The notes beneath the pieces are model-generated. The model saw only the letters and a program-made list of their open reading frames with translations, was not told the origin of the DNA and searched no databases. Below, one piece after another: positions 3,197 to 58,167 of a stretch of DNA of 64,000 nucleotides. The DNA lies in contig NZ_BOLN01000006.1 of the NCBI RefSeq assembly GCF_016861655.1, positions 62,001 through 126,000 on the forward strand, read 5' to 3'. Both the position numbers and the translations under genes were made by a program. The DNA is from Levilactobacillus lanxiensis (GTDB lineage: Bacteria; Bacillota; Bacilli; Lactobacillales; Lactobacillaceae). The stretch's first letter is position 1; every line of letters starts with the position of its first letter.

Positions 3197-3390
3197 GCGG
3201 ATAGTCGCCTGCGACAGCTAGGCATTCCGCCTGTGGGGTCCACCCGAAGCCAAAAAGCGGTCTTCGGGTTCGACTTGAAGCCTGACTCAAACCGTCAGTC
3301 TCCAAGATCGACCAGTCACGTAAGCCGGCACAAAACGCCGACTAACGTGACACGCACAGGTCTCCATGCCTAGCCGTCTCCGGCTATCGC
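3197..3390 (-). repeat. Structured intergenic repeat, copy A
   Basis: Member of a family seen eight times here. Read on the minus strand, the ends pair as a long imperfect stem (GGCTAGGCAT with ATGCCTAGC) around an inner CTGTG/CCACAG pairing. Inside are a GTCACGT...ACGTGAC hairpin, a CTTGGAGACT...GGCTTCAAG hairpin, and a CCCGAAG...CTTCGGG hairpin whose loop holds CCGCTTTTT. The core matches the other copies in reverse orientation. It lies in the 3' region of aspS, so the aspS transcript would carry the complement of the element. Confidence 0.75.
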
Positions 3391-3468
3391 AAATGGCTTA
3401 AGCTTCGGTTAGCTTGGTGGGAGTCATCTGTTTGATTTCTGCCGAATCTAAACAAATATAGTTTATAC

Positions 3469-3512
3469 GGGACTCATCCTTACCTTTATGGTAGGTGGTG
3501 AGTCCTTTTTTT
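3469..3512 (+). terminator. Rho-independent terminator of the hisS-aspS operon
   Basis: GGACTCATCCTTACC pairs with GGTAGGTGGTGAGTCC over a short loop and is followed by seven T. It lies 280 nt after the aspS stop, with repeat copy A between. Confidence 0.85.
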
Positions 3513-3730
3513 GTGATTAGGTTTGGGGTATTGCAAGTAATTTTAGAAAGATTAATTATGTAGTTAAATTATAGAAGGGATGTCTAACAGAAAGGGAATA
3601 CAGTGGTTTAACCCATTGTCGAAATAAATAATTCCTGTTAATAATCAGAGATAGACCAAGTCGGGTCAGCACTGTGCAGTCTTAGTGGCAGATGAATAGC
3701 AAACGCTGGCAGAAAATTAGTGGCAAGTCT
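3513..3730. other. AT-rich spacer with a truncated repeat remnant
   Basis: No gene is supported here. Bases 3631-3660 (TTCCTGTTAATAATCAGAG, then ATAGACCAAG) resemble the 5' flank and start of repeat copies C and D. They are followed by GGTCAGCACTGTGCAG, which resembles the flank of copy D. This looks like the broken 5' end of one element just ahead of the complete copy B. Confidence 0.35.
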
Positions 3731-3921
3731 GAGTGACCAGAGGCGGATCAAGGTGACCAGCTGTGTCGGTGTTGTTGGCTGGGGTCCTTTCCCAGCCTAG
3801 AACACGGGACGACCTTGGAAACTCACGTCCTTCAGTGAGGTTTCAAGTCGAGGTGGAAGACCGCTTCTCAGGCTGGAACCGGGCCCCACAGCAGGGCATC
3901 TTGAATCCGCCGCCGGGAACG
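3731..3921 (+). repeat. Structured intergenic repeat, copy B
   Basis: Starts GAGTGACCAGAGG and ends CCGCCGGGAACG. The outer stem pairs GGCGGATCAAGGTG with CATCTTGAATCCGCC. The second stem pairs CAGCTGTG with CCCACAGC. Hairpins inside are GGCTGGG...CCCAGCC, CGACCTTGGAAACTCAC...GTGAGGTTTCAAGTCG, and a CCGCTTCTCA loop. It lies between the aspS terminator and msrA, with no T run after it. Confidence 0.8.
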
Positions 3922-4013
3922 TGAAGCTTCGCTAACTAATTTTTCAGGCCAAGGGGAGTTGACCCATTGATGAAAAAGCGGTGTAATTGATAACATTAGA
4001 AAATGGAGTGATT

Positions 4014-4544
4014 ATGATGAGTGAAATTGAAACGGCAACATTTGCTGGCGGCTGTTTTTGGTGCATGGTCCGGCCGTTTGATACCTTCCCAGGAATTCAA
4101 AAAGTGCTGTCCGGCTACACCGGTGGAACCGTTGCCAACCCGACCTATGAGCAGGTGAAGAGCCAAACGACCGGGCACACCGAGGCCGTGAAAATTTGGT
4201 TTGATCCCAGCGTGGTGAGCTATCGGCAGCTGGTTGAGTTGTATTGGCAACAAACTGATCCTACCGATGATGCGGGGCAATTTCAGGACCGCGGTAGTAA
4301 TTACCGGCCCGTCATCTTCGTCAACAGTGCGGAGCAGGCGCAAATTGCGCGCGATTCCCGGGATGCCTTGCAACAACGTGAACAGTTCGACAAGCCTATT
4401 GTGACGCAGATTCAGGTCGTTCAACCCTTCTATCCAGCGGAAGAACGTCACCAACAATTCTATCAGAAGAATCCGGAACGCATGGCGCAAGAAGAAGCCG
4501 GCGGTCGTGAAGCATTTATCAAACAACACTGGCAAGAAGATTAG
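4014..4544 (+). CDS. msrA: Peptide-methionine (S)-S-oxide reductase
   Basis: Repairs methionine-S-sulfoxide in proteins, using thioredoxin as reductant in the cytoplasm. The 176-residue product carries the catalytic GGCFWC box near its N terminus followed by the typical GYTGG and TGHTEAVKI segments, and the length is normal for a single-domain MsrA. The reading frame stays open to 3987, but GGAG at 4005-4008 supports the paired ATGs at 4014/4017; either could be the true start. No msrB partner is adjacent. It stands alone between repeat copy B and the YitT-family gene, so it is probably its own transcription unit. Confidence 0.93.
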
Positions 4545-4590
4545 AAGTCGCTAAAAGCTGGCTTTTGCCGTGGCCGGAACGCTAATTAAA

Positions 4591-4599
4591 TGCTATACT
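4591..4599 (+). promoter_or_regulatory. Extended -10 element upstream of the yitT-family gene
   Basis: TGCTATACT fits an extended -10 (TGn plus TATACT). The possible -35 at 17 bp (TGGCCG) is poor, so the call rests on the extended -10. Confidence 0.4.
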
Positions 4600-4654
4600 A
4601 AGCCGAGCATAGTGTGAAGTATGACAAAAAATAAGCGAGGTCGAGTATTAAATC

Positions 4655-5530
4655 ATGGATGATGTGCAGCAGTTGTTTAAACGGCATACCTATACGGCCA
4701 AGTTCTCCGTCGCGTTCTTCTACGGGGTTCTGGTGTCGATTGCGGTGAACTTTTTCTGGACGCCGGGACATATTTATTCTTCCGGGGTTACCGGGTTAGC
4801 GCAGTTAGTCAACAGTTTAACGGCGGGGTTGGGGGCGTTTCACATTACGACGGCCCTCGGGCTGTTTCTGATCAACATTCCCATGTTTTTCCTAGCTTGG
4901 AAACAAATTGGTAAGTCTTTTACGGTCTTTACGTTCATTTGTGTCCTGTTCGCGTCCGTGATGATCCGGGTCATCCAACCGGTCCATTTGACCAGTGATC
5001 CCATCATCTGTGCCATTTTTGGTGGGGCCGTCAATGGATTTGGGACCGGATTTGCCTTGAAAAATGGGATCTCAACCGGTGGGTTAGATATCATCGGTAT
5101 CGTGCTTCGACGCAAGACGGGTCGCAGCATGGGGACCATTAACATTGCCTTTAACAGTTTGATCGTCATCAGTGCCGGCTTCGTTTACGGCTGGCCATAC
5201 GCGCTGTATTCTGCGCTTGGGCTGTTCGTGAACGCCAAGGTCATTGACATGACATTTACCCGTCAACAGCGGATGCAGGTCATGGTCATTACCGACCGAC
5301 CCAAGACGGTGATCGATAGTATTCAAAACCACATGCGGCGGGGAATTACGATTGTCCACGGCGCTGAAGGGGCCTATCGTCACGACGAAAAGACTATTTT
5401 GTTCACGGTCATTACCCGTTACGAAATGGATGCACTGGAAACGGCAATGGAAGAAGCCGATCCAAAGGCCTTCGTCAGTATCTCAGATACGGTCAAGGTG
5501 TTGGGACACTTCTACGAGCCTAAGTGGTAA
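4655..5530 (+). CDS. YitT family membrane protein (DUF161 plus DUF2179)
   Basis: Predicted integral membrane protein of 291 residues. About five hydrophobic segments lie between residues 15 and 190, including AVNFFWTPGHIYSSGVTGLA and GLDIIGIVLRR, which are hallmarks of the family. A soluble C-terminal domain of about 80 residues (from QVMVITDRP) corresponds to DUF2179. The biochemical role of the family is not settled, and I infer none beyond membrane location. The ATG at 4655 is the first in frame with the conserved N terminus; the ribosome site (GCGAGGTCGAG) is weak. A terminator follows at 5541, so the gene is monocistronic. Confidence 0.88.
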   Translation: MDDVQQLFKRHTYTAKFSVAFFYGVLVSIAVNFFWTPGHIYSSGVTGLAQLVNSLTAGLGAFHITTALGLFLINIPMFFLAWKQIGKSFTVFTFICVLFASVMIRVIQPVHLTSDPIICAIFGGAVNGFGTGFALKNGISTGGLDIIGIVLRRKTGRSMGTINIAFNSLIVISAGFVYGWPYALYSALGLFVNAKVIDMTFTRQQRMQVMVITDRPKTVIDSIQNHMRRGITIVHGAEGAYRHDEKTILFTVITRYEMDALETAMEEADPKAFVSISDTVKVLGHFYEPKW

Positions 5531-5540
5531 AACTTATGGA

Positions 5541-5569
5541 AAGTCTGGACGAGGGTCCGGGCTTTTTTT
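5541..5569 (+). terminator. Terminator of the yitT-family gene
   Basis: AAGTCTGGAC pairs with GTCCGGGCTT over a GAGG loop, followed by seven T. Confidence 0.9.
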
Positions 5570-5669
5570 AATTCGTCCGTGTAATTTTTTGGAAATGGTC
5601 GCGGGTTACGAGAGTAAGGACTATGTAAATAAAGGTAGGCAAACCAGCTGGCTGATAAAAATAATTTCT

Positions 5670-5834
5670 GTCAGTGACCAGAGATGGGCCAAGGTGGCCA
5701 GCTGTGTCGGTGATGTTAGACTGAGAGTTTCTTCTCGGACTTACAGCACGGGGCTCAAAGGCGAGGCGAAGGACCGCTCCTCAGGCCGGAGCCGTTCCCC
5801 ACAGCAGGCCACCTTGAGCCCACCGCCGGGAACG
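5670..5834 (+). repeat. Structured intergenic repeat, copy C
   Basis: Starts GTCAGTGACCAGAG and ends CCGCCGGGAACG. The outer stem pairs GATGGGCCAAGGTGGCC with GGCCACCTTGAGCCCACC. The AGCTGTG/CCCACAGC inner pairing and the CCGCTCCTCAGG loop are kept. It lies between the YitT terminator and the teichoic acid gene promoter. Confidence 0.8.
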
Positions 5835-5916
5835 AAGGCGCAGTCACCATTTTTAACAGTCGGAGGGGTTAAAGTATTAAAGGTTCGTAAAATTCTCTAG
5901 GTTATCCCAGTAGATG

Positions 5917-5925
5917 TGGTATAAT
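5917..5925 (+). promoter_or_regulatory. Extended -10 promoter of the teichoic acid gene group
   Basis: TGGTATAAT is a perfect extended -10. The -35 position (CTAGGT at 17 bp) is weak, as is usual when TGn is present. It lies 46 nt before the GTG start at 5971. Confidence 0.6.
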
Positions 5926-5970
5926 TCTCGGTGTTATGGACAGCGAAATCTAGTGATATTGGTGATTAAC

Positions 5971-7119
5971 GTGAAAGAGATTTATTTATGGTTAGTACGA
6001 CTGATGTCGCTACTCTGGTCGGGGCGACGGCAACGTGACGTGGTCTACCTGATGAGTTTCGGTGACAACGTCCCGTTTATCAAGGCGCTAGCGGCGGGTA
6101 TGCCGGCTGACCGGCAACTGTTGGTCTTTTATCGACCCAGTTGTCAGGCGGCCGCAGACGAGCTGGCAGCGACGGGTATCACGGTTCGACCGTTTACGGA
6201 CGGCCTAGGCTTTGTATTCACTGGCATTAGCCAGGTGATGCGGGCCCGGGTGTTGTTTTGCGACAACTATTACGCCTTCTTAGGCGGTTTGCGGCATCCC
6301 CGGCGCATGCGCATCGTTCAGATGTGGCACGCCGCGGGGGCTGTGAAGCGCTTTGGGTGGGATGATCCCACCACGGCGGACCGTTCGGCCAGTGATCAGC
6401 GCCGCTTTCAAGCGGTCTACGATCAATTCGACGAGTACGTGGTCGGGGCACCGGCCATGGGACAGGTGTTTGCGAGCAGCTATCGGGCACCGCTGGACCG
6501 GATGCAGGTCCTGGGGTATCCCCGGTCTGATCGTTTACAAGACGCCAACTGGGTGGCACAGACCCAGCAGCGGGTTTGGCAAGAATTGCCAGCCTTAAAG
6601 GGGCACCGCGTGATCTTGTATGCACCAACTTACCGGGAGGGCGTGACCTTCACACCACCCAAAGGGTTAGCCCAAGCGCTACGGCGTGATCCGGATGCCC
6701 GGGTCGTGCTCAGGTTACATCCGGCGTTGGCAACCAAAGCGGAAGACTTCCAGCGACAATTGGGTGCGCAGGGGGTCGACGCGGCGGGCTTGTCCACGGC
6801 GGAACTGTTAACGGTGACCGAAACGTTGGTCACGGATTATTCATCGGTGGCGTTTGACTACAGTTTGTTGGCCAACGCCCACAGCTTACTGTTTTACCTA
6901 TTTGATTTACCAGCCTACCAGCAGGATCCGGGTGTGCAACCGGACTTGCTGGACTGGCTACCGGGCCCGGCCTTAACGACCAACGCTCAACTGGCAGCGG
7001 CCATCCAAGCGGATGCCGCTACCGAGCTTACCCAATTCAATCAACATTGGAATAGTGCCAACGACGGCCACGCGACTGAACGTGTGGTTGCCCGTTACGT
7101 CGCGCTATTATCCGATTAA
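5971..7119 (+). CDS. CDP-glycerol glycerophosphotransferase family protein (TagB/TarB-like)
   Basis: Predicted peripheral membrane enzyme of 382 residues that transfers glycerol phosphate from CDP-glycerol during wall teichoic acid assembly. Family signatures are WHAAGAVKRFG at 119-129 and DYSSVAFDY from residue 289. The product is short, like the primase type that adds the first glycerol phosphate, and has an amphipathic N terminus (YLWLVRLMSLLW). The start is GTG at 5971, served by GGTGAT at 5961-5966; the frame is open further upstream but without a ribosome site. It is the first gene of a unit with the TagG-like permease and a second transferase. TagB-type activity rather than polymerase is inference from length. 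Confidence 0.82.
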   Translation: MKEIYLWLVRLMSLLWSGRRQRDVVYLMSFGDNVPFIKALAAGMPADRQLLVFYRPSCQAAADELAATGITVRPFTDGLGFVFTGISQVMRARVLFCDNYYAFLGGLRHPRRMRIVQMWHAAGAVKRFGWDDPTTADRSASDQRRFQAVYDQFDEYVVGAPAMGQVFASSYRAPLDRMQVLGYPRSDRLQDANWVAQTQQRVWQELPALKGHRVILYAPTYREGVTFTPPKGLAQALRRDPDARVVLRLHPALATKAEDFQRQLGAQGVDAAGLSTAELLTVTETLVTDYSSVAFDYSLLANAHSLLFYLFDLPAYQQDPGVQPDLLDWLPGPALTTNAQLAAAIQADAATELTQFNQHWNSANDGHATERVVARYVALLSD

Positions 7120-7139
7120 AGTTAAAGGAGTGCAGTGCC

Positions 7140-7949
7140 TTGAAAGAGGTCATGACCTTATTTAAAGAACAATTCTCGAGTATCGGAATTATTTTCCGAA
7201 TTTCTCGCTACGAGGATCAAGCAAGTTATCAGAGTCACTACTTAGGTTTAGCCTGGGAATACTTATACCCGTTGATTCAAATCGCTATTTACTGGTTAGT
7301 CTTCGGGGTTGGGTTGAAGCATGGCCAACCGTTAAATGGGGTCGGTTACCTCCCTTGGATGGTTATCGGAATCACGCCATGGTTCTTCATGAACCGGGCC
7401 ACGTTGGACGCTTCTAAGAGTATCTACCAACGGGTCAATATGGTGGCCAAGATGAAGTTCCCAGTGTCCGCACTGCCAACGATCAAGGTCGTCAGCAACT
7501 TGAGTTCCTTCTGGACCATGATGGTCTTCTCCATCTTTATTGGCCTGTTAAATGGGGTCTACCCAAGTGTTTCTTGGTTCCAATGGATCTACTACTTCTT
7601 CGCCATGATTTGCTTGCTGGTTGCCTTAGGGGTTCTGAACTCCTGCATTAGCTTGCTGGTCCGGGATTACCACATCCTGTTACAATCCGTGATGCGGATG
7701 TTATTCTACGTGTCTGGCGTGCTGTTCAACTTCGTTACCACGTCATTCCCAGCACCATTCGTCCACTTATTGGAACTGAACCCGTACTATTACATTGTTA
7801 ATGGGTTCCGGGAATCCTTTATCGGGACCGGTTGGTTCTGGCAACACCCAATGTTGAGCTTGGAATTCTGGTTATTCGTCATCTTCGTTCTGTTGATTGG
7901 CTCTCACTTGCACTACAAGTTCCGGTCACGGTTCGTCGACTTAATTTAA
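7140..7949 (+). CDS. tagG: ABC-2 type permease, teichoic acid/polysaccharide exporter (TagG-like)
   Basis: Membrane component of the exporter that flips finished teichoic acid across the cytoplasmic membrane. The 269-residue protein shows about six hydrophobic spans, the N-terminal amphipathic stretch, LGLAWEYLYPLIQI, and the LNPYYYIVNGFRESF segment typical of TagG/Wzm-type ABC-2 permeases. The start is TTG at 7140, 9 nt after AAAGGAG; ATG at 7152 is an alternative. It is flanked on both sides by CDP-glycerol transferases. No cognate ATPase (TagH) is in the window, so it must be encoded elsewhere. Confidence 0.87.
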   Translation: MKEVMTLFKEQFSSIGIIFRISRYEDQASYQSHYLGLAWEYLYPLIQIAIYWLVFGVGLKHGQPLNGVGYLPWMVIGITPWFFMNRATLDASKSIYQRVNMVAKMKFPVSALPTIKVVSNLSSFWTMMVFSIFIGLLNGVYPSVSWFQWIYYFFAMICLLVALGVLNSCISLLVRDYHILLQSVMRMLFYVSGVLFNFVTTSFPAPFVHLLELNPYYYIVNGFRESFIGTGWFWQHPMLSLEFWLFVIFVLLIGSHLHYKFRSRFVDLI

Positions 7950-7969
7950 TTTGAAAGGAGCAACCTCAA

Positions 7970-9190
7970 ATGGCTAAAGGTTCACACGAATTCGTCCAGT
8001 CATTGAAGCTCGTTGCTCGCTATGGGCTCATCGTCTTGAACGGTGGGCTTATTTGTTTACCCATCAAGCGGCGACAAGTGATTTTTGAAAGTTTTAACGG
8101 CAAGGATATCAACGACAATCCGGCAGCGATTTACCGCGAATTAGTTAAGGAACACCCCGACTATGCACACACGGCTTACTTTAGCGTCAAGCCTCGAGAA
8201 TTCGCGGGCCTGCATGCAAAATACCCGGAGATCAATTTGGTCAAGCGTTTCACGCCGCGGTGGGTCACTCTGATGGCGCGGGCAGAGTTTTGGGTGCTGA
8301 ATTCACGGTTACCCAACTGGTGGCACCAGAACCGCCGCACGACCGTCATTCAGACCTGGCACGGGACCCCGCTGAAAAAGTTGGGCGCAGACATTGCCCA
8401 CGTGGCGATTCCCGGGACCAGCACGGCGGACTACCACCACGAATTTATCACGGCGGCGCATCGCTGGAATTATTTGATTGCGCCGAACCAGTATTCACAG
8501 GATATTTTCAAATCGGCCTTCGGGTTTAAAAACCAGTTTTTGTCGATTGGGTACCCCCGAAACGATGTGCTCTACACAACGAGCCAAGATGAGGTGTTCG
8601 CCCTGAAACAACGTCTGTTGGGCGCCGTGAACGGGCCCGTCGTGACCTATGCACCAACCTGGCGCGATGACATGGCGGTACGGCCGGGCGTCTATCGCTT
8701 TGACCTGCCATTTGATCTGGGCGAGTTCTTCAACCACGTACCAGCGGGAACGCACCTGATCATTCGGCCCCATTATTTGGTCAAGGACGCCATCGATATC
8801 CACGGTTATGAAGACCGGGTAACCGTGTTGGCCGAGACCGATATTGCCCAGCTTTACCTGATTTCCGACCTCTTAATTACGGATTACTCCTCGGTCATGT
8901 TTGACTTCGCTAATTTGAAACGGCCGGAACTGTTCTTTGCCTATGACCTGGCGCATTACCGCGACCAGCTCCGCGGCTTTTACTTTGATTATGAACGGGA
9001 AATTCCGGGACCGCTGGTGACGACGGCTGCGGCTTTTTACCAGCAACTCGATGGTTGGCGGGAGACCGGCGCCTTTGCCGGCTATGAAGAACGCCAGGCC
9101 GCCTTTTACCACAAGTTTTGTGAGTGGGAAGATGGCACGGCCAGTCGCCGCGTCGTTGACGTCATCAGTCATGAAGGGAAGGGGCACTAA
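7970..9190 (+). CDS. CDP-glycerol:poly(glycerophosphate) glycerophosphotransferase family protein (TagF-like)
   Basis: Second glycerophosphotransferase of the group (406 residues). It probably extends or primes the polyglycerophosphate chain of wall teichoic acid at the inner membrane face. [10 protein letters not shown] lies at 130-139 and the CDP-glycerol-binding [10 protein letters not shown] box at about 304. It lacks the extra N-terminal module of long TagF polymerases, so primase versus polymerase cannot be told from sequence alone. GAAAGGAG sits 9 nt before the ATG at 7970. The stop overlaps the nfo start by one base (TAATG), so nfo is translationally coupled to it. Confidence 0.85.
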
Positions 9191-16987: not shown

Positions 16988-17773
16988 GTGGCACGGAATG
17001 TGACTGATTTTCACGGCATCCTCCTTTTTCGCCGGGACTATGCCGAACGGGATTTTCTGATCAAGTTTTTAACGGCGGAGTTTGGCAAGAAAATGTTTCT
17101 GGTGCGTGGCGCCAAGAAAAAGGGCTTCAAGATGGTGGCGGATATCTTGCCATTCACGGTCGGCAGTTATGTCGGTGATATTGCCGACGACGGGCTGTCG
17201 TACATCCGGACGGCCAGAGAGACCAACCAGTATCAAAATATTAGCGGCGACATTTTCAAAAATGCCTATGCCACCTATATCATGAGTCTGGTCGATCAGG
17301 CCTTTCCGGACAGCCAACCACTGCCAGACTGGTATCACCGTGTTCAGCGCGCACTGACCCTGATCGACGATGGGGTGAACCCGTCAATTGTTACCAACAT
17401 CATGGAAATTCAGTTGATGCCAGCCTTTGGGGTCGCGCCGCAGTTACAGGGGTGTGCCATTTGCGGGCGGAATGACCTGCCATTTGACTATTCGGAAAGC
17501 TACGGGGGCCTGTTGTGCCAGCAGCATTGGCAAATGGACCCACGGCGCCTGCACCTGGCTCAACGCACGATTTATTATTTACGTCAGTTCTCCGTGATCG
17601 ACTTGGACCGGGTCCATTCGATCAACGTGAAACCGCAGACGGAGCATGCGCTGCGCCAGCTGATGGATGAAATCTATGATAGTCAGATTGGGGTGCATCC
17701 TAAGAGCAAACGGTTCTTGGATCAGATGCAGTCGTGGTCAGCCCGCCTGATGACACCACCGACGACGGACTAA
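16988..17773 (+). CDS. recO: DNA repair protein RecO
   Basis: Loads RecA on SSB-covered single-stranded DNA together with RecR in gap repair. About 261 residues. The N-terminal OB fold begins NVTDFHGILLFRRDYAE, followed by a helical domain and a cysteine cluster (CAICGRNDLPF ... GLLCQQHW) that usually binds zinc. The best start is GTG at 16988 (MARNVTD); ATG at 16982 is an alternative. In most relatives glyQ follows; here 13 kb of accessory DNA intervenes. Confidence 0.94.
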   Translation: MARNVTDFHGILLFRRDYAERDFLIKFLTAEFGKKMFLVRGAKKKGFKMVADILPFTVGSYVGDIADDGLSYIRTARETNQYQNISGDIFKNAYATYIMSLVDQAFPDSQPLPDWYHRVQRALTLIDDGVNPSIVTNIMEIQLMPAFGVAPQLQGCAICGRNDLPFDYSESYGGLLCQQHWQMDPRRLHLAQRTIYYLRQFSVIDLDRVHSINVKPQTEHALRQLMDEIYDSQIGVHPKSKRFLDQMQSWSARLMTPPTTD

Positions 17774-17847
17774 ACGTTTCGCCTCCGGCCGATACTTGTG
17801 GTAGGTGGCATCGCCAGGGTGACAACATTAAATATAAATAAACAACA

Positions 17848-17896
17848 GAAAATACCGTTCAGCTTTCCATGTTGGAAAGTTCTGAACGGTATTTTT
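17848..17896. terminator. Terminator hairpin after recO (repeat copy 1 of 2)
   Basis: AATACCGTTCAG pairs with CTGAACGGTATT around a loop region of a further TTTCC/GGAAA pairing, followed by TTTTTG. A near-identical copy lies at 18444-18493. Confidence 0.85.
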
Positions 17897-17981
17897 GTGT
17901 AGTATTCGTTTTAAGAAAGCTTTTGATTTTGCATAGCCTTGGTCAGCTCACCTAAGAAAATAAAGGATACACCATTGTCTA

Positions 17982-17990
17982 TGCTATAAT
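17982..17990 (+). promoter_or_regulatory. Extended -10 promoter of the toxin mRNA
   Basis: TGCTATAAT is a perfect extended -10 element. Transcription would begin near 17997, giving a leader of about 95 nt before the toxin start. Confidence 0.6.
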
Positions 17991-18050
17991 TGGCTTCACG
18001 TAGGAAGTTTTAAGGGCGGTGGCTGTCTTTTCCCTTATGAGGTGATGTCT

Positions 18051-18074
18051 ATGGGGACATGGAATAAACTTTGA
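18051..18074 (+). CDS. Seven-residue leader peptide ahead of the toxin (putative)
   Basis: GAGGTGAT at 18039-18046 precedes an ATG that opens MGTWNKL and then stops at TGA 18072-18074. The stop touches AAAGG of the toxin ribosome site, so translation of this leader could open or couple to toxin translation. It is too short for homology; the support is only the ribosome site and position. Confidence 0.35.
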   Translation: MGTWNKL

Positions 18075-18089
18075 AAGGTTTCGCAGTCA

Positions 18090-18176
18090 GTGAGTGTGTT
18101 TCAGGCACTTTCGTTGATGTTACTGTTTGGCACGTTTTTAATAGCGTTGCTGACGTACATTGACAGGCGTAAATAA
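18090..18176 (+). CDS. Type I toxin, Hol_Tox/BsrG-TxpA-like small membrane peptide
   Basis: A 28-residue peptide starting at GTG. It opens with a short polar N terminus (MSVFQALSL), has one hydrophobic span (LMLLFGTFLIALLTYI) and ends in the basic tail DRRK. This pattern (V-x-x-AL-x-LM-x-x-FG) is that of the putative holin-like toxin family that includes Bacillus TxpA and BsrG, which insert in the membrane when overproduced. AAAGG at 18074-18078 is the ribosome site. Context supports the call: own promoter upstream, terminator at 18271, and a convergent antisense RNA whose terminator covers the end of this frame. Toxicity is inference from the family. Confidence 0.75.
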   Translation: MSVFQALSLMLLFGTFLIALLTYIDRRK

Positions 18177-18340: not shown

Positions 18341-18443
18341 CAATTATCCCTTACACTGGGAAGCCACCTGTGCTTGTGCATCGTAGTTTTAGCAGTTTGC
18401 TGCCAGTGAATTTAATGGGCTAGAAGGCCGAAAACTTCAACAG

Positions 18444-18493
18444 AAAATATCGTTCAATTTCTCCATTTGGAAAATTCTGAACGGTATCTTTTG
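18444..18493. terminator. Terminator hairpin of cdd (repeat copy 2 of 2)
   Basis: AATATCGTTCA...TGAACGGTATC hairpin, nearly identical over about 58 bp to 17848-17896 and flanked by the same CAACAGAA. It sits just after the cdd stop on the minus strand and has T-rich sequence on both sides. Confidence 0.75.
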
Positions 18494-39309: not shown

Positions 39310-39426
39310 GTCAGTGACCAGAGGCGAATCAAGCTGGTCAGCTGTGTCGATGGTCGTGACTGGGGAACCTTCTCAGGCTGGCACCGGTCCCCACAGCAGG
39401 CCAGGTTGAATTCGCCGGCGGAAACG
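39310..39426 (+). repeat. Structured intergenic repeat, copy E (short form)
   Basis: Starts GTCAGTGACCAGAGG. The outer stem pairs GGCGAATCAAGCTGGTC with GGCCAGGTTGAATTCGCC. The GCTGTG/CACAGC inner pairing and TTCTCAGGCTGG segment are kept, but about 65 nt with the two middle hairpins are missing. It ends about 45 nt before the ribosome site of the MMPL gene. Confidence 0.75.
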
Positions 39427-50412: not shown

Positions 50413-53400
50413 ATGTTTGTACCGTTACAAGTCTTAAGCACCTACAGTTTATTACAGAGCACGAACCGCATCGACGCGCTGGTCCAGACGGCCAAGGACC
50501 GGGGTTACTCGGCTTTAGCGCTCACCGACCATAACGTCATGTACGGAGTCGTGGCCTTTTACAACGCCTGCCAACAAGCGGGAATCAAACCCCTGTTGGG
50601 CCTCACGTTAAGCGCCCAGGGCATCAGTGACGCCCCCCAGGCGCACGATTGGGTCCTGATTGCCCAGGACTTTACCGGTTATCAACAGTTGATGCAGCTC
50701 TCCACGGCCTACCAGGTCGCAGAAGGCCCGGTCGACCTGACCCAACAAGCCGCCAACCTGAGTCATTTGGACCTGATTGCGCCCCTAGATAGCGAGATCC
50801 ATCAGCTCCTAGCCGCGGGTGACGTCACGGCCGCCGAACGCGTTGTGCACCAGCTACAGGGCTTAGACCCCCACCTGTCTTTAGGGATTAGCCCAGAAAT
50901 ACCGACGGCGACCCGTGAGACCTTAATCACGCTGGCACAGACCACGCAGATCCCTCTGGTGGCGTTAGCGCCGGTCGAGTACCTGGACCGCGACGACCAT
51001 TTTGCCGTGACCGTCCTGCGGGCCATCGGGGCCGGGGCGACGTTAACGGACCCGACCGCTGAACAAGAAACGTTGGGGACCCACTGGTTACGCCCGGCAG
51101 CCGAGGAGACCGCACGGTTTGAAGCCGCCGGTCTGGGGGATGCGGTGACCGCCACGGGGGAACTCGCCGCCCAAACGGCCGTGACCCTGAAGTTCCAGCA
51201 GCCGCAATTGCCCCAATTTCCCACACCTGATCACCAGGCCTCCCAGGATTACCTGCGTGAGCTCTGCCAAACGGGGATCAAACGCCGCCTAGCCCAGAAT
51301 GCCATCACAGATAGCCAGCCTTACCAGGAACGCTTAGAACGCGAATTAGGGGTCATTCACCGGATGGGCTTTGACGACTACTTCCTGATTGTCTGGGACG
51401 TCATGAACTACGCCCACCAGGCCCACATTCAGACCGGACCGGGGCGGGGATCGGCGGCTGGCTCACTTGTGGCCTACGTTCTAGCCATTACCGAGGTCGA
51501 CCCGTTGGCCTATGACCTGTTATTCGAACGATTTTTAAACGAGGAACGGGCCCAGATGCCCGATATCGACCTGGATATCCCGGATAATCGCCGGGAACAG
51601 GTCTTGCAGTACGTCCATAACAAATACGGCCATACCCGTGTCGCCCAGATCATTACCTTCGGGACACTAGCCACCAAGGCCGCGTTGCGTGACGTGGGCC
51701 GGGTGCTGGGGATGCCACCGTATGCCATGAGCGACTGGAGCGCGGCCATTCCGCCACAGCTCCACATCACGCTAAAGGAAGCCTATGATCAGTCACAAAA
51801 GCTGCGCAACCTGGTGGCCGATAGTGAGAAGAACCGCCTGTTATTTGAGACGGCCCAAAAGCTCGAGGGCTTGCCCCGGCACTACTCGACCCATGCGGCC
51901 GGCATCGTGTTGAGCCAGGGACCGTTGACGGACCTGGTGCCCCTGCAACCGGGGAGTGAAGACCTGCTGATGACCCAGTACCCCAAGGATACGGTCGAGG
52001 CGGTCGGTCTATTAAAAATGGACTTCCTGGGCTTGCGGAACCTGAGCATTCTTGCCAATACGTTAGCCTTAGTCAAGAAACAAACGGGCCGTGCGCTCGA
52101 CCTGAATCAAATCGATTTAAACGATGCCGCGACATTAGCGTTATTTGCCCAGGGGGAGACCAACGGCGTCTTTCAATTCGAATCATCCGGGATCAAACGG
52201 GTCCTGCGGCAGCTCAAACCCAACAGTTTTGAACTGGTCGCGGCGGTCAACGCCCTGTACCGACCGGGACCCATGGAAAACATCGATACCTTCATTCGGC
52301 GGAAGGACGGCAAGGAACAGGTGACCTATGCGGCGCCAGTCTTAAAGCCCATCCTCGGACCGACCTATGGCGTGTTAGTGTACCAGGAACAGGTCATGCA
52401 GGTGGCATCCGCCATGGGGGGCTTTACACTTGGGGAAGCCGATTTGCTCCGGCGAGCCATGAGTAAGAAGAAAAAGCAGACCATGGACGCCATGCAAAAG
52501 AAGTTCGTGAGTGGCGCACAACAGTTGGGCTATGCCCCAGCGGTCGCCGAACAGGTCTTTGCCTACATGGACCGCTTCGCTAACTACGGGTTCAACCGCT
52601 CCCATGCGGTGGCCTATAGCAAATTAGCCTTTCAACTGGCCTACCTGAAGGCCCACTATCCCGGACCGTTCTACGCGGCCTTGATGAACTCGGTGATCAA
52701 CGTGCCGGTCAAGACCAAGGCCTATTTGACCGAGGCCAAGCGCCACGGGGTGACCGTGCTCCCACCGGACATCAACGACTCGACGGCCTACTTCAACTTA
52801 CAGGGGGATGCGGTCATCTTCGGGTTAAGCAGTATCAAGGGGGTCCGCCGGGACTTTTTACGGGAGGTCTTAGCCGATCGCAACGAAAACGGCCCGTTCA
52901 AGGATCTCCACCAATTCTTACAACGCATCGATGCCAAGTATCGCAAGACGGACCTGTTAAACGCACTGGTCTACGCGGGTGCCTTCGACCATTTCGGCCA
53001 TAACCGTGCGGAGCTCCTGGCCGCCTTGCCAGAATTCATCAGTACCGTCGAACTTTCCGGCGATAACGTCGAGCTATTTGCCGCGTTGGCGCCGAAGATC
53101 AAACCGGTGCCGGACCTCGACTTGATGACCAAGCTCAGCAATGAGGAAGCCGTCTTAGGGGCATACCTCTCGGGCCATCCCGTCGCCCAGTACCAGGCGC
53201 TCGCACAGCAACTCCACGCGACGACCATTAGTGATTTAACCGTGAATGCCCGGGTCGCTACGATTCTCTATGTGACTAAGATTCGAACGATTCGGACCAA
53301 ACGCGGCGAGCCGATGGTCTTCGTGACCGGGAGTGACGAGACGGCCGACGTGAGTGTCACCATCTTCCCCAATCAATTCCGGCAGGTCAGCACTTGGTTG

Positions 53401-53796
53401 AAAACCGACCAGGTAATCGTCGTGCGGGGGAAGGTCGAACAACAGCGAGGCTTGCAGATTGTGGCCGACCAGGTAACGTTGGCTGAGGAGATACCGGTTC
53501 GTGAGCAGTCGGCGTCACAGTCTAGCTCGTCGCCGCAACCCAAGCAACCGACGTTACCGACGGGCGCCCGCTGGTTCATTCGGGTGGACGTCAATCATGA
53601 TGACCGGTCGGTAGCCAGACAGCTGGCCCAATTTTTGACCAGTCATGTCGGTCAGGTGCCCGTCATCGTGTACCAACCCCAGACGGATACCAAACGTGTC
53701 CTGCCCAAAAGCCAGTGGTTACCGGGGGATGCCCAGCTAAAAGACGCCCTGGAACAACTGATGGGCGTGGGTAATATCGTCTTACAAAACGGATAG
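50413..53796 (+). CDS. dnaE: DNA polymerase III subunit alpha (DnaE)
   Basis: Replicative polymerase of the C family, DnaE3/short Gram-positive type, that extends primers, mainly on the lagging strand, before PolC takes over. The 1127-residue protein has an N-terminal PHP domain (LTDHNVMYGVVAF), the palm with PDIDLDIPD (D384/D386), the GPGRGSAAGSLVAY loop, a helix-hairpin-helix region and a C-terminal OB fold (about 950-1030). AGAAGGGAG precedes the ATG at 50413; the longer open frame upstream includes the promoter and is not coding. Confidence 0.97.
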   Translation: MFVPLQVLSTYSLLQSTNRIDALVQTAKDRGYSALALTDHNVMYGVVAFYNACQQAGIKPLLGLTLSAQGISDAPQAHDWVLIAQDFTGYQQLMQLSTAYQVAEGPVDLTQQAANLSHLDLIAPLDSEIHQLLAAGDVTAAERVVHQLQGLDPHLSLGISPEIPTATRETLITLAQTTQIPLVALAPVEYLDRDDHFAVTVLRAIGAGATLTDPTAEQETLGTHWLRPAAEETARFEAAGLGDAVTATGELAAQTAVTLKFQQPQLPQFPTPDHQASQDYLRELCQTGIKRRLAQNAITDSQPYQERLERELGVIHRMGFDDYFLIVWDVMNYAHQAHIQTGPGRGSAAGSLVAYVLAITEVDPLAYDLLFERFLNEERAQMPDIDLDIPDNRREQVLQYVHNKYGHTRVAQIITFGTLATKAALRDVGRVLGMPPYAMSDWSAAIPPQLHITLKEAYDQSQKLRNLVADSEKNRLLFETAQKLEGLPRHYSTHAAGIVLSQGPLTDLVPLQPGSEDLLMTQYPKDTVEAVGLLKMDFLGLRNLSILANTLALVKKQTGRALDLNQIDLNDAATLALFAQGETNGVFQFESSGIKRVLRQLKPNSFELVAAVNALYRPGPMENIDTFIRRKDGKEQVTYAAPVLKPILGPTYGVLVYQEQVMQVASAMGGFTLGEADLLRRAMSKKKKQTMDAMQKKFVSGAQQLGYAPAVAEQVFAYMDRFANYGFNRSHAVAYSKLAFQLAYLKAHYPGPFYAALMNSVINVPVKTKAYLTEAKRHGVTVLPPDINDSTAYFNLQGDAVIFGLSSIKGVRRDFLREVLADRNENGPFKDLHQFLQRIDAKYRKTDLLNALVYAGAFDHFGHNRAELLAALPEFISTVELSGDNVELFAALAPKIKPVPDLDLMTKLSNEEAVLGAYLSGHPVAQYQALAQQLHATTISDLTVNARVATILYVTKIRTIRTKRGEPMVFVTGSDETADVSVTIFPNQFRQVSTWLKTDQVIVVRGKVEQQRGLQIVADQVTLAEEIPVREQSASQSSSSPQPKQPTLPTGARWFIRVDVNHDDRSVARQLAQFLTSHVGQVPVIVYQPQTDTKRVLPKSQWLPGDAQLKDALEQLMGVGNIVLQNG

Positions 53797-53889
53797 ACCA
53801 ATTTTAATAAAAATACCTCTAGACTATTTGTGCGGGCTTTAGTATGATTATACCAATGCTTAACAAATAGAGAACTGGAGGTTTTTTTG

Positions 53890-54606
53890 ATGGATTTAAA
53901 CGTGAAGATTTACGCTGATGGGGCCAAGCTGGCCGATATGCAGGCCGTGGCGGCCCAGGGACTGGTCACGGGGTTCACCACGAACCCAAGCTTGATGAAG
54001 GCCGCCGGGATCACCGACTACTTAGCCTTTGCCCAAAAGGCAGTGGCTACGTTCCCCGACCAATCGATCAGCTTTGAGGTCTTTGGCAACACCCCCGACC
54101 GGATGCTCGCCGAGGCCAAGGTCCTAGCCGGCTTAGGCCAACACGTCGCCGTGAAGGTGCCAATCATCCGGGCCAACGGTGAGGACAACGCCGCGGTCAT
54201 TTGCGAATTGTCTAACGCCGGAGTCCAAGTCAACGTGACGGCCATCACGACGCTCACCCAGGTCAAGTTAGCCGTCGACGCCTTGAACGCTAAGGTCGGG
54301 GGCATCGTCTCCGTCTTTGCCGGGCGCGTTGCCGACACGGGTGTCGATCCCTTGCCATTGATGCGGCAAGCCGCTGGACTCTGCCACACCAAGGAACACG
54401 TCGAATTGTTATGGGCCAGCACCCGTGAAGTCTTTAACGTGGTTCAGGCCGAACAGACCGGCTGCGACATCATCACCGTGCCACCTAAGATCTTAGCCAA
54501 GCTTGCCAAATTTGGGACGCCAGCCGTTCAGGTCTCCGTGGACACGGTCAAGACGTTTGATGCGGACATCGCCAGTCTCGGATTTACCATTCCCGTGACG
54601 GAATAG
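53890..54606 (+). CDS. Transaldolase family protein (TalC/fructose-6-phosphate aldolase-like)
   Basis: Class I aldolase-fold protein of 238 residues. The Schiff-base lysine is K89 in VAVKVP, with TTNPS at 30-34 and the late AGRVADTG and WASTRE motifs. It most resembles short transaldolases annotated as TalC/TalA-like; it could transfer dihydroxyacetone between sugar phosphates or cleave fructose 6-phosphate. GGAGG lies 9 nt before the ATG at 53890. It occupies the place between dnaE and pyk where pfkA stands in homofermentative lactobacilli, fitting a pentose-phosphate/phosphoketolase metabolism. Confidence 0.85.
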   Translation: MDLNVKIYADGAKLADMQAVAAQGLVTGFTTNPSLMKAAGITDYLAFAQKAVATFPDQSISFEVFGNTPDRMLAEAKVLAGLGQHVAVKVPIIRANGEDNAAVICELSNAGVQVNVTAITTLTQVKLAVDALNAKVGGIVSVFAGRVADTGVDPLPLMRQAAGLCHTKEHVELLWASTREVFNVVQAEQTGCDIITVPPKILAKLAKFGTPAVQVSVDTVKTFDADIASLGFTIPVTE

Positions 54607-54764
54607 GCGATTCGTCGCGAATAATGATGGAACTTAAGAAATCCTTACGTTTTGTCGGAAACGGGGGATGACCGAACGGTGGGGGATGTCCCCATTCAGT
54701 GGTCAAAACGATTGGTCTAGTTGCTTGATTGGTCTGACAATAAAGCGCTATTTATCCATTCAAT
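54607..54764. other. Intergenic stretch with a possible folded segment
   Basis: No gene. CGTTTTG (54648-54654) can pair with CAAAACG (54704-54710) around an inner TGACC...GGTCA and GGGG...CCCC hairpin, without a T run. TAAAGCGCTA at 54741-54750 resembles a weak CcpA cre site. Confidence 0.35.
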
Positions 54765-54796
54765 AACCTGTTGATTATAAAATCAGCAGGTTTTAA
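54765..54796 (+). terminator. Terminator of the transaldolase-family gene
   Basis: AACCTGTTGATT pairs with AATCAGCAGGTT, followed by TTAATC. Confidence 0.75.
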
Positions 54797-54822
54797 TCTT
54801 TCCTGAGGCCCGCCGGCCCGGG

Positions 54823-54836
54823 GAAAGCGCTTACTT
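54823..54836 (+). promoter_or_regulatory. Catabolite-responsive element (cre) upstream of pyk
   Basis: GAAAGCGCTTACTT (54823-54836) keeps the central AAAGCGCTT of the CcpA consensus. It lies about 40 bp upstream of the pyk -35, a place where CcpA usually activates glycolytic genes. Confidence 0.65.
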
Positions 54837-54877
54837 TGAAAAAATATGAACAATCAGCGAAAAATCGGTAAACAAAG

Positions 54878-54906
54878 GCGACATTAATTTTCAAAAGTGA
54901 TAGAAT
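54878..54906 (+). promoter_or_regulatory. Promoter of pyk
   Basis: GCGACA, 17-bp spacer, TAGAAT, about 100 nt before the start codon. Confidence 0.5.
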
Positions 54907-55007
54907 AATTTTGGAATCAAATTTGTGCCGAAACTTTTTGTGAGTCTTAATTTGACTAAAGTTATTAAAAATTGTTTCGTGCCAATTCTAAAGGAGAGAT
55001 TTTTCTA

Positions 55008-56765
55008 ATGAAGAAAACCAAGATCGTAAGTACCCTTGGTCCTGCAAGTACTGACGTTGATACGATTGTTAAGTTGATCGAATCCGGCGCCAACATCTTC
55101 CGGTTCAACTTCTCACACGGTGACCACGAGGAACACCTCGGCCGTTTGGAGAACGTTCACAAGGCTGAAAAGATTACTGGTAAGACGGTTGGTATCATGT
55201 TGGATACGAAGGGTGCCGAAATCCGGACCACTGTTGAACAGGGCGGTAAGCTCAACTTCAAGACTGGTGACGTATTCCGGATTTCCATGGACGACTCACT
55301 CGAAGGAACCAAGGAAAAGATTGCTGTTACTTACCCTGGCTTATACGATGACGTTCACGAAGGCGGCCACGTCTTATTCGATGATGGTTTATTAGACACT
55401 GTCGTTGATAAGAAGGACGAAGCAACTAAGGAATTAGTTGTGACTGTTCAAAACGATGGTGTTCTGGGCTCCCGTAAGGGTGTTAACGCTCCTGGCGTTT
55501 CCATCAACTTACCAGGGATCACCGAAAAGGATTCCGATGACATTCGTTTTGGTTTGGACCACGAAATCAACTTCATCGCTGCTTCATTCGTTCGGAAGCC
55601 ACAAGATGTCATGGACATCCGTGAACTCCTCGAAGAAAAGCACATGGAACACGTTCAAATCTTCCCTAAGATCGAATCCCAAGAAGGTATCAACAACTTT
55701 GATGACATCATCAAGGTTTCCGATGGTTTAATGGTTGCTCGTGGTGACATGGGTGTCGAAATTCCAACGGAAAACGTGCCTTTGGTACAAAAGGCTTTGA
55801 TCAAGAAGTGCAACATCTTAGGCAAGCCAGTTATCACCGCTACCCAAATGTTGGACTCCATGCAAGAAAACCCACGTCCTACTCGTGCCGAAGCATCTGA
55901 CGTTGCCAACGCTGTCTTTGACGGTACTGACGCAACGATGCTTTCTGGTGAAAGTGCTAACGGTGAATACCCAGTACAAGCCGTTGCTACGATGAACCGG
56001 ATCGACATCAAGGCTGAAAATGCTTTGAAGGACTTTGGTCGTGACAACTTAGACTTCGATAACGGTGACGTTACTGAATCTATCGGTGCTTCCGTTGCTC
56101 GTGTTGCTAACCAACTTGGTGTTAAGACCATCGTTGCTGCAACTGAAAGTGGCTACACCGCTAAGATGATTTCTAAGTACCGGCCAGATGCTGATATCTT
56201 AGCCGTTACCTTTGACGACCGGACCCGTCGTGGTTTGATGGTCAACTGGGGTGTTTACCCAATCGTTACCGAAAAGCCTTCAAACACTGATGAAATGTTT
56301 GACCTGGCTGCAGCCAAGGCCGTTGAAACGGGCTTAGCTAAGGAAGGCGACTTAATCCTGATCACCGCTGGTGTGCCAGTCGGCGAACGCGGGACGACTA
56401 ACTTGATGAAGATCCAATTGATCGGCTCAAAGTTAGTTCAAGGCCAAGGTGTCGGTGACGACACAGTTATCGGCAAGGCAATCATTGCCAACACCGCTGC
56501 TGAAGCCAACGCCAAAGTCGTTGAAGGTGGTATCTTAATTGCTAAGAACACCGACAAAGACTACTTGCCAGCTATCGAAAAGTCTAGCGCCGTTATCGTT
56601 GAAAACGGTGGGTTGACTTCTCATGCTGCTGTTGTTGGGATTTCTATGGGGATTCCTGTTATCGTTGGCGCTACCGGTGCCAGCGACAAGATCTCCGATG
56701 GCGAATTGATCACCGTTGACTCACGTCGCGGTATCGTTTACCACGGTGCTTCCAACGCGCTTTAA
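55008..56765 (+). CDS. pyk: Pyruvate kinase
   Basis: Converts phosphoenolpyruvate and ADP to pyruvate and ATP. The 585-residue protein begins MKKTKIVSTLGPAS, has the catalytic barrel with GDMGVEIP and ITATQMLDSM, and ends with the extra PEP-utilising swivelling domain (TSHAAVVGISMGIPVIVG) found in Bacillus and lactobacilli. AAAGGAGAG precedes the ATG at 55008. Codon use is strongly biased, as in highly expressed genes. Usually it follows pfkA; here a transaldolase-family gene precedes it and pyk has its own cre-linked promoter. Confidence 0.98.
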   Translation: MKKTKIVSTLGPASTDVDTIVKLIESGANIFRFNFSHGDHEEHLGRLENVHKAEKITGKTVGIMLDTKGAEIRTTVEQGGKLNFKTGDVFRISMDDSLEGTKEKIAVTYPGLYDDVHEGGHVLFDDGLLDTVVDKKDEATKELVVTVQNDGVLGSRKGVNAPGVSINLPGITEKDSDDIRFGLDHEINFIAASFVRKPQDVMDIRELLEEKHMEHVQIFPKIESQEGINNFDDIIKVSDGLMVARGDMGVEIPTENVPLVQKALIKKCNILGKPVITATQMLDSMQENPRPTRAEASDVANAVFDGTDATMLSGESANGEYPVQAVATMNRIDIKAENALKDFGRDNLDFDNGDVTESIGASVARVANQLGVKTIVAATESGYTAKMISKYRPDADILAVTFDDRTRRGLMVNWGVYPIVTEKPSNTDEMFDLAAAKAVETGLAKEGDLILITAGVPVGERGTTNLMKIQLIGSKLVQGQGVGDDTVIGKAIIANTAAEANAKVVEGGILIAKNTDKDYLPAIEKSSAVIVENGGLTSHAAVVGISMGIPVIVGATGASDKISDGELITVDSRRGIVYHGASNAL

Positions 56766-56785
56766 TTTGAGATAAACCTGTTATA

Positions 56786-56816
56786 AAAAGGACCCTCTGT
56801 CGGGGGTCCTTTTTTG
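56786..56816 (+). terminator. Terminator of pyk
   Basis: AAGGACCC pairs with GGGGTCCTT over a short loop, followed by TTTTT. Confidence 0.92.
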
Positions 56817-56992
56817 CTGTCCAGAAAGTGGGATAGCGTTTGAACGTAGGTCGTCCTGACAACCACAACCGCCCACGCACAACTTAAACAATTTTGTCAG
56901 ATTAATCCTCGCTAGTTCGGGCGTTTCCGTGTAAAATAAAGGTTAGACACTTTTGACCGGTAGACTGGGAAACCAGTAGAATTGAGGAGATT

Positions 56993-57892
56993 ATGGAAGA
57001 ACTATTAGGCCGCATCATCGCGGGAAAAGTTACTGATGAAAACGAAAAGGATTACTACGTGCAAGTTTCTGGCACAACTTTTCGGTTAGATAAAGCAGAA
57101 ATCAAAAAGCCCTTGAAGTTGGGCTCGATTTTCAAGGGATTCGCCTATGAAAATGAAGACCATGACATGCAGATTACCCGGGACGCTCCGGATGCCCAAG
57201 TTGACCACTATGGTCTGGGCACGGTCGTTCGGAGCCAACGGACGTTAGGGGTGTTCGTGAATATTGGCCTGCCCAACAAGGATATCGTGGTCTCCCTGGA
57301 TGATCTACCAGATATCATGGAATTGTGGCCCCAACAGGGGGACAAGCTGCTGATTGCCTTGCGTGAAGACGCCAAGCAACGGCTCTGGGGCGTGCTGGCC
57401 GATGGTGATGTTTACCAGGCCATTGCCCAACCCGCAAAGAAGAAGATGCAAAATAGCAACGTGACCGCCCGTTCGTACCAATTAAAATTGGTGGGGACCC
57501 GGGTCATCACGGATAATTTTGAATTGGGCTTCATTCACCCGTCAGAACGGGAAACGGAACCCCGCCTGGGCGAGGAACTACATGCCCGGGTCATTGGGGT
57601 CCACGACGATGGCACCCTGAACTTATCCCTGCGTCCCCGGACTTACGAGGCTATCGATGACGATTCAGCCATGTTGTTAGCCGCACTCCAACACTCGGAT
57701 GACGGCAAGCTGGACTTCAGCGACAAGTCAGACCCCGCAGCCATCAAGGCATACTTCGGGATCAGTAAGGGCCAATTCAAGCGGGCCATCGGTCACTTGT
57801 TAAAAGACCGTCAAATCACCCAGCACGATGGCGCCCTCTGGTTAAACCAAAGCGCAGCCACAACGGAAAAGACGGACGAACCAGCGGAATAG
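56993..57892 (+). CDS. cvfB: S1 RNA-binding domain protein CvfB/YitL
   Basis: RNA-binding protein of 299 residues with tandem S1-like domains (for example GTVVRSQRTLGVFVNIGLPNK in parts, and LGEELHARVIGVHDDGTLNLSLR) and a C-terminal winged-helix segment (KAYFGISKGQFKRAIGHLLKD). CvfB affects virulence gene expression in staphylococci; in lactobacilli the role is not established. GAGGAG precedes the ATG. It lies between pyk and repeat copy H, ahead of the xerD run. Confidence 0.92.
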   Translation: MEELLGRIIAGKVTDENEKDYYVQVSGTTFRLDKAEIKKPLKLGSIFKGFAYENEDHDMQITRDAPDAQVDHYGLGTVVRSQRTLGVFVNIGLPNKDIVVSLDDLPDIMELWPQQGDKLLIALREDAKQRLWGVLADGDVYQAIAQPAKKKMQNSNVTARSYQLKLVGTRVITDNFELGFIHPSERETEPRLGEELHARVIGVHDDGTLNLSLRPRTYEAIDDDSAMLLAALQHSDDGKLDFSDKSDPAAIKAYFGISKGQFKRAIGHLLKDRQITQHDGALWLNQSAATTEKTDEPAE

Positions 57893-57993
57893 CTGGCTGG
57901 GTTTCAAGTCGTTCAAGAAAGTTTAGTCGTGCTCATACTTAATCACTGTCAGAGTTCATTGGCAGGAGTAAGTGTGAACTAACTGAACATGAG

Positions 57994-58167
57994 CCGCAGG
58001 GCGGGTGAAAATGGGCCCAGCCGTGGGAATTCTCTTGGTGGCTTTGTCACTTAGAGAATTGGACTCTTTGAGACGCTTGGCGGCTCAAAGTAAGCCCGGA
58101 GACCGCTTTTAGTCTCCGGGCGTCCGCCCACAGCGTTCCGGTCCCATTTTCACCCGCCCGGAGGCGG
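57994..58167 (+). repeat. Structured intergenic repeat, copy H (divergent)
   Basis: Same architecture, different sequence. The outer stem pairs GGGCGGGTGAAAATGGGCC with GGTCCCATTTTCACCCGCCC. CAGCCGTGGG can pair with CCCACAGCG. Hairpins are GAATTCTCT...AGAGAATT, CTTTGAG...CTCAAAG, and CCCGGAGAC CGCTTTTA GTCTCCGGG with the conserved CGCTTTT loop. It ends about 27 nt before the xerD ribosome site. Confidence 0.7.

Follow-up and report, generated by a model that had tools for sequence, protein, structure and literature searches.

The stretch of DNA considered here (the window) comprises 64,000 nucleotides (nt) of Levilactobacillus lanxiensis (RefSeq assembly GCF_016861655.1, contig NZ_BOLN01000006.1, positions 62,001 to 126,000), i.e., part of a 3.03 Mb genome whose AspRS is closest to those of Levilactobacillus wangkuiensis and L. 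mulengensis. Eight structured elements of the window (e1 to e8) belong to a chromosomal repeat family of Lactobacillaceae, in the copies of which a nested helix, interrupted by internal-loop modules that are conserved, encloses a core of three hairpins. One strand, called the sense strand, carries the conserved fold; this fold is kept at individual loci between species, and in most copies its 3' end faces the adjacent gene regardless of the direction of that gene. A preliminary description, made from the letters of the window, had claimed elements at eight sites, and exactly those eight were recovered by the covariance model R1 (40.7-221.4 bits, E <= 8.1e-9), the rest of the window being without further R1 sites and giving only weaker opposite-strand shadows of the eight. 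This model of 189 positions and 54 pairs was built from an alignment (A2) of 31 same-genome copies, namely 29 sampled loci, of which L001 is e2 itself, together with e4 and e6; as such, the scores of e2, e4 and e6, which are the model's own sequences, are partly high by construction. The elements and associated features are listed below by position on the window, the modules being described further on.

3203..3387, minus strand: e1, with an A-reversed module (AGCCGGAG / CGCAGGC), R1 91.1 bits; its predicted outer stem, folded with the flanks, would extend to the aspS stop codon (3187-3189)
3470..3512, plus strand: terminator-like hairpin (intrinsic) with a T-run in the e1-e2 spacer, read in the sequence and kept in L. 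wangkuiensis and L. mulengensis
3733..3921, plus strand: e2, inner module complete (module B, P2, P3 and the core of three hairpins), R1 221.4 bits
3959..3987, plus strand: promoter-like TTGACC-17-TGTAAT between e2 and msrA, read in the sequence
5674..5834, plus strand: e3, 5' half of hairpin 2 absent, R1 140.9 bits
13173..13354, minus strand: e4, full inner module, R1 196.2 bits
17767..17788, minus strand: element remnant (outer 3' arm), a complete element in L. wangkuiensis
39314..39426, plus strand: e5, core-deleted copy, R1 83.0 bits
44070..44249, plus strand: e6, full inner module, R1 193.8 bits
44317..44507, plus strand: e7, with ends of the A-reversed type, in tandem with e6, R1 132.1 bits
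57993..58166, plus strand: e8, in which outer module A (GCCGCAGGG / CCCGGAGGCG) passes straight into the core, R1 40.7 bits

The minus strand of e1 and e4 had gone unmentioned in the preliminary description; the other six elements are on the plus strand. The members are divergent: most of the common core proposed there is gone from e5, and the end sequences said to be frequent do not extend to e1, e7 and e8, whose outer modules differ from GTGACCAGAGG/CCGCCGGGAACG. The count of CCCACAGC is 9 against 2.4 expected, and 9 was reached in none of 100 shuffles. That all copies lie between genes is agreed for the eight, the overlapping mechanical open reading frames (ORFs), i.e., those of 82-182 amino acids (aa) at e1, e3 and e6/e7 and one long ORF whose earliest TTG start touches the end of e5, being judged spurious or start artefacts without test.

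Abundance, range and known families

The designation as an eight-copy family is right for the window but gives its density only, as 84 more places exist in 400 kb of the same genome. The density sample was composed of the window and 20 chosen, spread stretches of 20 kb (464 kb in total), in which 130 matches merge into 92 places, 14 of them below 40 bits and two of them remnants of 35-41 nt. Extrapolation gives about 640 places per source genome, and at least 150, all at E <= 3.2e-44, stand among the matches listed. Tiny remnants in which module-B ends persist with the core deleted were seen at L141:12113-12153 and L131:2921-2955.

In the Lactobacillaceae sample, matches (E <= 0.001) occur in 64 of 301 genomes and 9 of 40 genera, 13/15 being positive in Levilactobacillus, and the named hosts belong to Levilactobacillus, Furfurilactobacillus and Secundilactobacillus. 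Eighteen genomes chosen among the positives hold from 5 to at least 145 matches each, a few of which are perhaps opposite-strand shadows, and half of these genomes (9/18) exceed 100. Across the order, 12 of 295 sampled genomes match, two of them (G413 and G472, from another family) only weakly, at 27-33 bits, with a minus-plus pair 2.3 kb apart in G472. A blastn search with e2 returned no match in plasmids and phages, and viral contigs contain no exact match of an 18-nt core pattern, a weak test considering that this pattern matches only 32 of 205 loci examined.

In agreement with the statement that no named family fits, no Rfam 15 family reaches its cut-off on the elements. At gathering cut-offs, the window yields only a flavin mononucleotide (FMN) riboswitch and rli28, both at other places, and at E <= 5 there is no match in 3100-5950 (e1-e3), the only stretch searched so permissively. 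The rli28 match (RF01492, a Listeria small RNA, 58.8 bits) covers 17975-18158 and is flanked by two similar terminator-like repeats, 17843-17896 and 18438-18491 (81% identical). The FMN riboswitch (61641-61759, 105.7 bits) stands at the start of a 239-aa ORF (61745-62464), and at 62483-62560 a 39-nt terminator-like unit forms a perfect tandem duplication.

No such family was found in the literature searched, from which subscription papers were mostly outside, so that absence from print is not proven. The literature compared includes PMC11109978, PMC8632094 and PMC2267715. Three groups of repeats come close. (i) REP/BIME sequences with RAYT (Y1) transposases likewise form many intergenic folded copies, BIMEs alternating in orientation (PMC2817692, PMC3733652), but REP sequences are palindromes of 20-40 bp (PMC3733652), whereas the present fold is multibranched, spans about 190-300 nt and is found almost only in Lactobacillaceae. 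(ii) The MRSC-65-2 motif shares many copies per genome, strong covariation and candidacy as a mobile or repeat class, but is a single long stem with a UYCCGG repeat from diverse phyla, whereas the element here is multibranched, with a three-hairpin multiloop, and occurs essentially in one family (Narunsky et al., 2024, PMC11109978). (iii) The ERIC and YPAL stem-loop repeats are similarly intergenic, of about 100-200 bp and able to fold, and the survey describing them, which covers Lactobacillus johnsonii, describes no such family in its accessible passages (Cozzuto et al., 2008, PMC2267715).

A Y1 transposase is present in the source genome (G000), G234, G201 and G309, and in fragments in G142; no match was found in the remaining seven of 12 element-bearing genomes, namely G317, G273, G229, G275, G061, G125 and G052. 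An REP with its Y1 transposase is disfavoured on this absence and on the size of the unit, with its 189 positions and 54 pairs instead of a 20-40 nt palindrome.

Fold anatomy, covariation and sense strand

As observed in 12 long copies, the outer part of the fold is a succession of (i) a variable outermost stem, (ii) module A with a GCA/GGA internal loop, and (iii) a variable stem around TGAAAATG/CATTTTCA followed by a loose joint. Inside lies module B (GTGACCAGAGG/CCGCCGGGAACG), where tandem GA stands opposite GA and which encloses the variable stem P2; innermost are the conserved stem P3 (AGCTGTG/CACAGC) and the three-hairpin multiloop, the last hairpin of which holds GACCGCTYCTCAGGC. Depending on the copy, the outer modules are A, B, both, or reversed A; the outer loop of e1 and e7 is of the GCCGGAGG/CCGCAGGC type, of which GCCGCAGGG/CCCGGAGGCG of e8 is the same loop with its strands exchanged. 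When folded with its flanks, e2 has outer arms that continue on both sides. Throughout, stems vary among copies and loops are conserved.

The two arms of the stems were said to change together, and in the 31 copies 26 of 54 pairs indeed exhibit double changes, with pairing in 98.6% of 1672 cells. Covariation scores 0.300 versus 0.141 +/- 0.006 when shuffled and at most 0.086 when slid; one of five covariation measures, namely further pair types, passes only weakly, 18 of 500 shuffles being as high. With covariation above both controls and fewer broken pairs than expected at orthologous loci, the view that compensatory change keeps the fold rather than the sequence is borne out. Covarying differences are not all independent compensatory events, though, because the stems at a given locus vary in part through blocks replaced from other copies, as seen at e4, L137:2607 and L137:12150.

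The strand was assessed in 71 distinct copies aligned without structure (52 pairs, 3680 cells), where 3365 cells are Watson-Crick, 220 G-U, 30 A-C and 65 other. In columns with a Watson-Crick majority, G-U cells number 79 and A-C cells 29, and the minimum free energy is lower for the sense strand in 61 of the 71 copies. In other Levilactobacillus species G-U stands at 46 versus 10 A-C, with the sense strand more stable in 17/17, and in other genera at 117 versus 20, with 38/40; for these other species, the copies had been aligned to the model, and this could bias the counts towards G-U, whereas the energies do not depend on it. This asymmetry bears on the view of the elements as palindromes at the level of DNA, the arms of which would be kept alike by template-switch repair without any selected fold. 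Such repair would account for arms strongly different between copies and for the 392 minority Watson-Crick cells against few intermediates (the 79 G-U and 29 A-C above, and 62 other), but neither a strand asymmetry nor conserved mismatched internal loops (GA/GA, GCA/GGA) are expected of a perfecting repair, which makes this view very improbable.

Constraint and turnover at orthologous loci

Two relatives at about 93% identity, G317 and G309, were compared with the source genome at 36 element loci. Of the 72 locus-genome combinations, 40 were scored, the others being too gapped (17), below 80% identity (4), with an orthologous stretch under 200 nt (6) or without anchors (5); the 40 comparisons are not independent, two per locus sharing their history. 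Identity is 93.4% in the element versus 86.6% in the 120-nt flanks, which are partly coding. Only 76 pairs are broken versus 181 +/- 7.4 with the same substitutions randomly placed, none of 500 simulations being as low, and compensatory double changes were found in 53 pairs. In the 24 comparisons at >=94% identity, 18 broken pairs stand against 53 expected (summed by hand). One-sided changes at pairs that are Watson-Crick in the folds of both strands lead to G-U in 33 cases and to A-C in 12 (p 0.0012), or 10 and 3 at >=94% identity (p 0.046), these p values treating changes as independent although both genomes share history.

Copies are lost by deletion and replaced by conversion-like exchange, a turnover displayed by the combinations outside the 40. 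Partial deletions between relatives concern e3, whose 5' part is shorter in L. wangkuiensis and absent from L. mulengensis, and the remnant at 17767. At the e1 site, a near-identical element is found in L. wangkuiensis and a diverged one in L. mulengensis; the e4 site holds in both sister species a copy with other stems, 76% identical; e7 is absent in L. wangkuiensis and represented by its 3' part only in L. mulengensis. In L. brevis CD0817, judging from coordinates, an element of the same orientation is present in the e3 gap and upstream of the 44661 gene (the e6/e7 site), the orthologous gap of e8 holds a related core with other complementary arms, and there is no element in the aspS-msrA gap or the e5 gap. 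A tandem duplication affects L132:14670 in G309 and probably L139:13592 in G000.

This turnover is where a selfish, MITE-like or retro-like element comes into play, in which the folded sense strand, as RNA or single-stranded DNA, would serve the element's own movement, insertion would be polar and any host function incidental. Such an element, inserting in a polar manner, is the chief competitor of the reading favoured below and nearly as likely. It would agree with the very high dispersed copy number, uneven between the 18 counted genomes, with tandem and adjacent copies, and with the e5 site, occupied in this clade (complete in L. wangkuiensis, reduced to the 5' end in L. mulengensis) versus intergenic gaps of 36-121 nt in six other relatives. 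Element pairs also seem to be copied as a unit, since a double element of about 500 nt (L137:10015-10501) has a composite form that recurs, with 79-84% identity, at nine other places in two close relatives. On the contrary, the differences read in detail at about 93% identity look like the loss of an older copy by deletion (17767, e3, e5), like replacement or like tandem duplication, and no target-site duplication was recognised; moreover, the fold is maintained at individual loci, the searches of plasmids, phages and viral contigs gave the negative results described above, and the Y1 transposase is absent in six genomes with over 100 matches. In a search for far-apart module-A ends, such as an autonomous parent transposon would carry, which was swamped by single-motif matches, 85 of 119 left-end motifs, many of them probably due to chance, had no right end within 420 nt.

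Polarity towards genes and its interpretation

In the source genome, the closer gene lies on the side of the 3' end at 76 of 85 places, 5 of 90 being without a called gene on both sides and short genes being missed by the simple ORF caller. The median distance on the 3' side is 26 nt to a stop codon and 100 nt to a start codon, and on the 5' side 309 or 467 nt. The same polarity is found at 17/17 places in other Levilactobacillus and 37/39 in other genera, from 56 of 57 other-species matches (L172, at a contig end, was left out; at least one pair of loci, L173 and L174, looks orthologous). Relative to gene direction no clear bias is seen, as 87 copies divide into tandem-sense (27), tandem-antisense (21), convergent (16), divergent (14), at edges (4) and over small ORFs (5). 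Opposite-strand neighbours within 700 nt are divergent (-,+) in 12/12 cases in the source genome, with seven more neighbours on the same strand, and in 18/18 cases in other species, with two more on the same strand; some ten further divergent pairs, some at orthologous sites, and no convergent ones were spotted by eye. To our knowledge, no fixed orientation towards genes is known for ERIC or YPAL repeats. Replichore orientation as an explanation was rejected for lack of consistency between two genomes, with no clear bias among 84 placed copies of one and, among 28 copies of the other, 9+/4- in the first half and 3+/12- in the second.

The aspS-msrA interval exemplifies this arrangement, the order being the aspS stop, e1 (-), the terminator-like hairpin, e2 (+), the promoter-like site and msrA. 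Because the latter site falls between e2 and msrA, e2 is apparently located 5' of the promoter rather than within the 5' untranslated region (UTR); L. brevis ATCC 14869 has a similar TTGACG..TTTAAT at msrA and no element there. A minus-strand element directly behind aspS is also seen at 7 of the 28 loci of Levilactobacillus type, as well as in Furfurilactobacillus milii (L095) and Secundilactobacillus similis (L117); a plus-strand element occupies this position in one further species (L081).

Considering the short distance to stop codons and that strong folds can block exonucleases, the elements could be UTR elements controlling the stability or translation of the adjacent mRNA. An mRNA faced from behind its stop codon would, however, contain the strand complementary to the conserved one; even so, the sense bias is lower and not reversed in stop-facing copies (G-U:A-C 27:15 versus 51:14 in start-facing ones) and is strong in other genera, where most elements (29/39) lie behind a stop codon, antisense to the faced gene. 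Besides, a promoter-like site lies between the 3' end and the start in 11 of 31 start-facing copies versus 4.35 when shuffled, e2 being an example, and 7 versus 3.85 were found in equal lengths of 5' flank. Control from the UTR is consequently improbable. A 5' UTR leader or riboswitch in particular is disfavoured by these downstream promoter-like sites and by the absence of a consistent sense position before a gene class.

Small RNAs that are transcribed independently, each from its own promoter, and that act either in trans or as antisense to the neighbouring 3' end would suit the stop-facing class, where the faced gene's mRNA runs opposite to the conserved strand, and the weak excess of promoter-like sites 5' of elements in the source genome, i.e., 24/85 at a score >=9 (13 shuffled and 13 on the other strand) and 9/88 at >=10 (4.4 and 5, respectively). 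In other species there is no such excess (2/56 versus 3.8 shuffled), the distance to the element is not fixed, and the extrapolated 640 copies per genome make separate small RNA genes implausible; we regard this explanation as unlikely.

Bidirectional or factor-dependent terminators and insulators also sit between genes, at gene ends. The elements differ from these in having no consistent U-tract and in not replacing canonical terminators, and in that the source genome has no full Rho; a stem without a consistent U-tract likewise disfavours a canonical intrinsic terminator. Full-length Rho was found in G273 and G125, of the element-bearing genus g38, and the other 18 of 20 genomes, including the source Levilactobacillus, had no match above the family cut-off.

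As the strand bias is independent of the mRNA faced, the upstream promoter signal is weak and the 3' end faces the gene, the relevant molecule would best be an RNA made from the spacer towards the gene, by read-through from a neighbouring gene. The favoured reading, to which we give a probability of roughly 0.38, is tentative, namely a gene-edge element acting on transcripts that enter the gene from the spacer. Folding of this RNA at the gene edge, via polymerase pausing, protein recruitment or processing, might exclude foreign or antisense transcription, and we infer that the element would insulate the gene. Each gene edge could carry its own copy, and two copies in one spacer would therefore point away from each other; copies would spread, then be replaced by conversion-like exchange and removed by deletion.

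Several observations weigh against such an action on spacer transcripts, and its possible direct supports failed. A T-run is not commoner after the sense 3' end, with TTTTT within 150 nt in 21/87 cases versus 33/87 before the other end. Gene ends with an element have canonical terminators about as often (convergent 15/24, tandem 22/45) as those without (21/46 and 57/100), so that such terminators are not depleted there, nor are they replaced by the elements. Of the element-bearing genomes, 10 of 12 lack full Rho, but so do 8 of 8 element-free ones, and its lack therefore does not explain the presence of elements. Many copies are deleted or changed between close species, and hence no single copy looks essential. 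Part of the constraint could also be mimicked by gene conversion between copies. A broader form of the same idea, rather doubtful in our view, is a genome-wide punctuation, where hundreds of strand-specific RNA folds at gene edges would be one-way barriers neutralising incoming transcripts, selected for their fold and renewed by conversion.

Dispersed repeats of bacteria are usually regarded as short palindromes or as dead mobile DNA. What is new here is the fold constraint per locus, the strand specificity, the polarity rule, and the loss by deletion together with conversion-like replacement. A single family, which at the extrapolated 640 copies of about 190 nt would make up some 4% of the genome, brings together a fold that is complex and covaries, strand specificity, single-locus constraint and a strong orientation towards genes; with its very many covarying copies of one fold, it also offers a natural data set. 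Through this combination of fold, strand, locus constraint and orientation, whether repeats serve the cell or themselves becomes directly testable in cultivable food bacteria.

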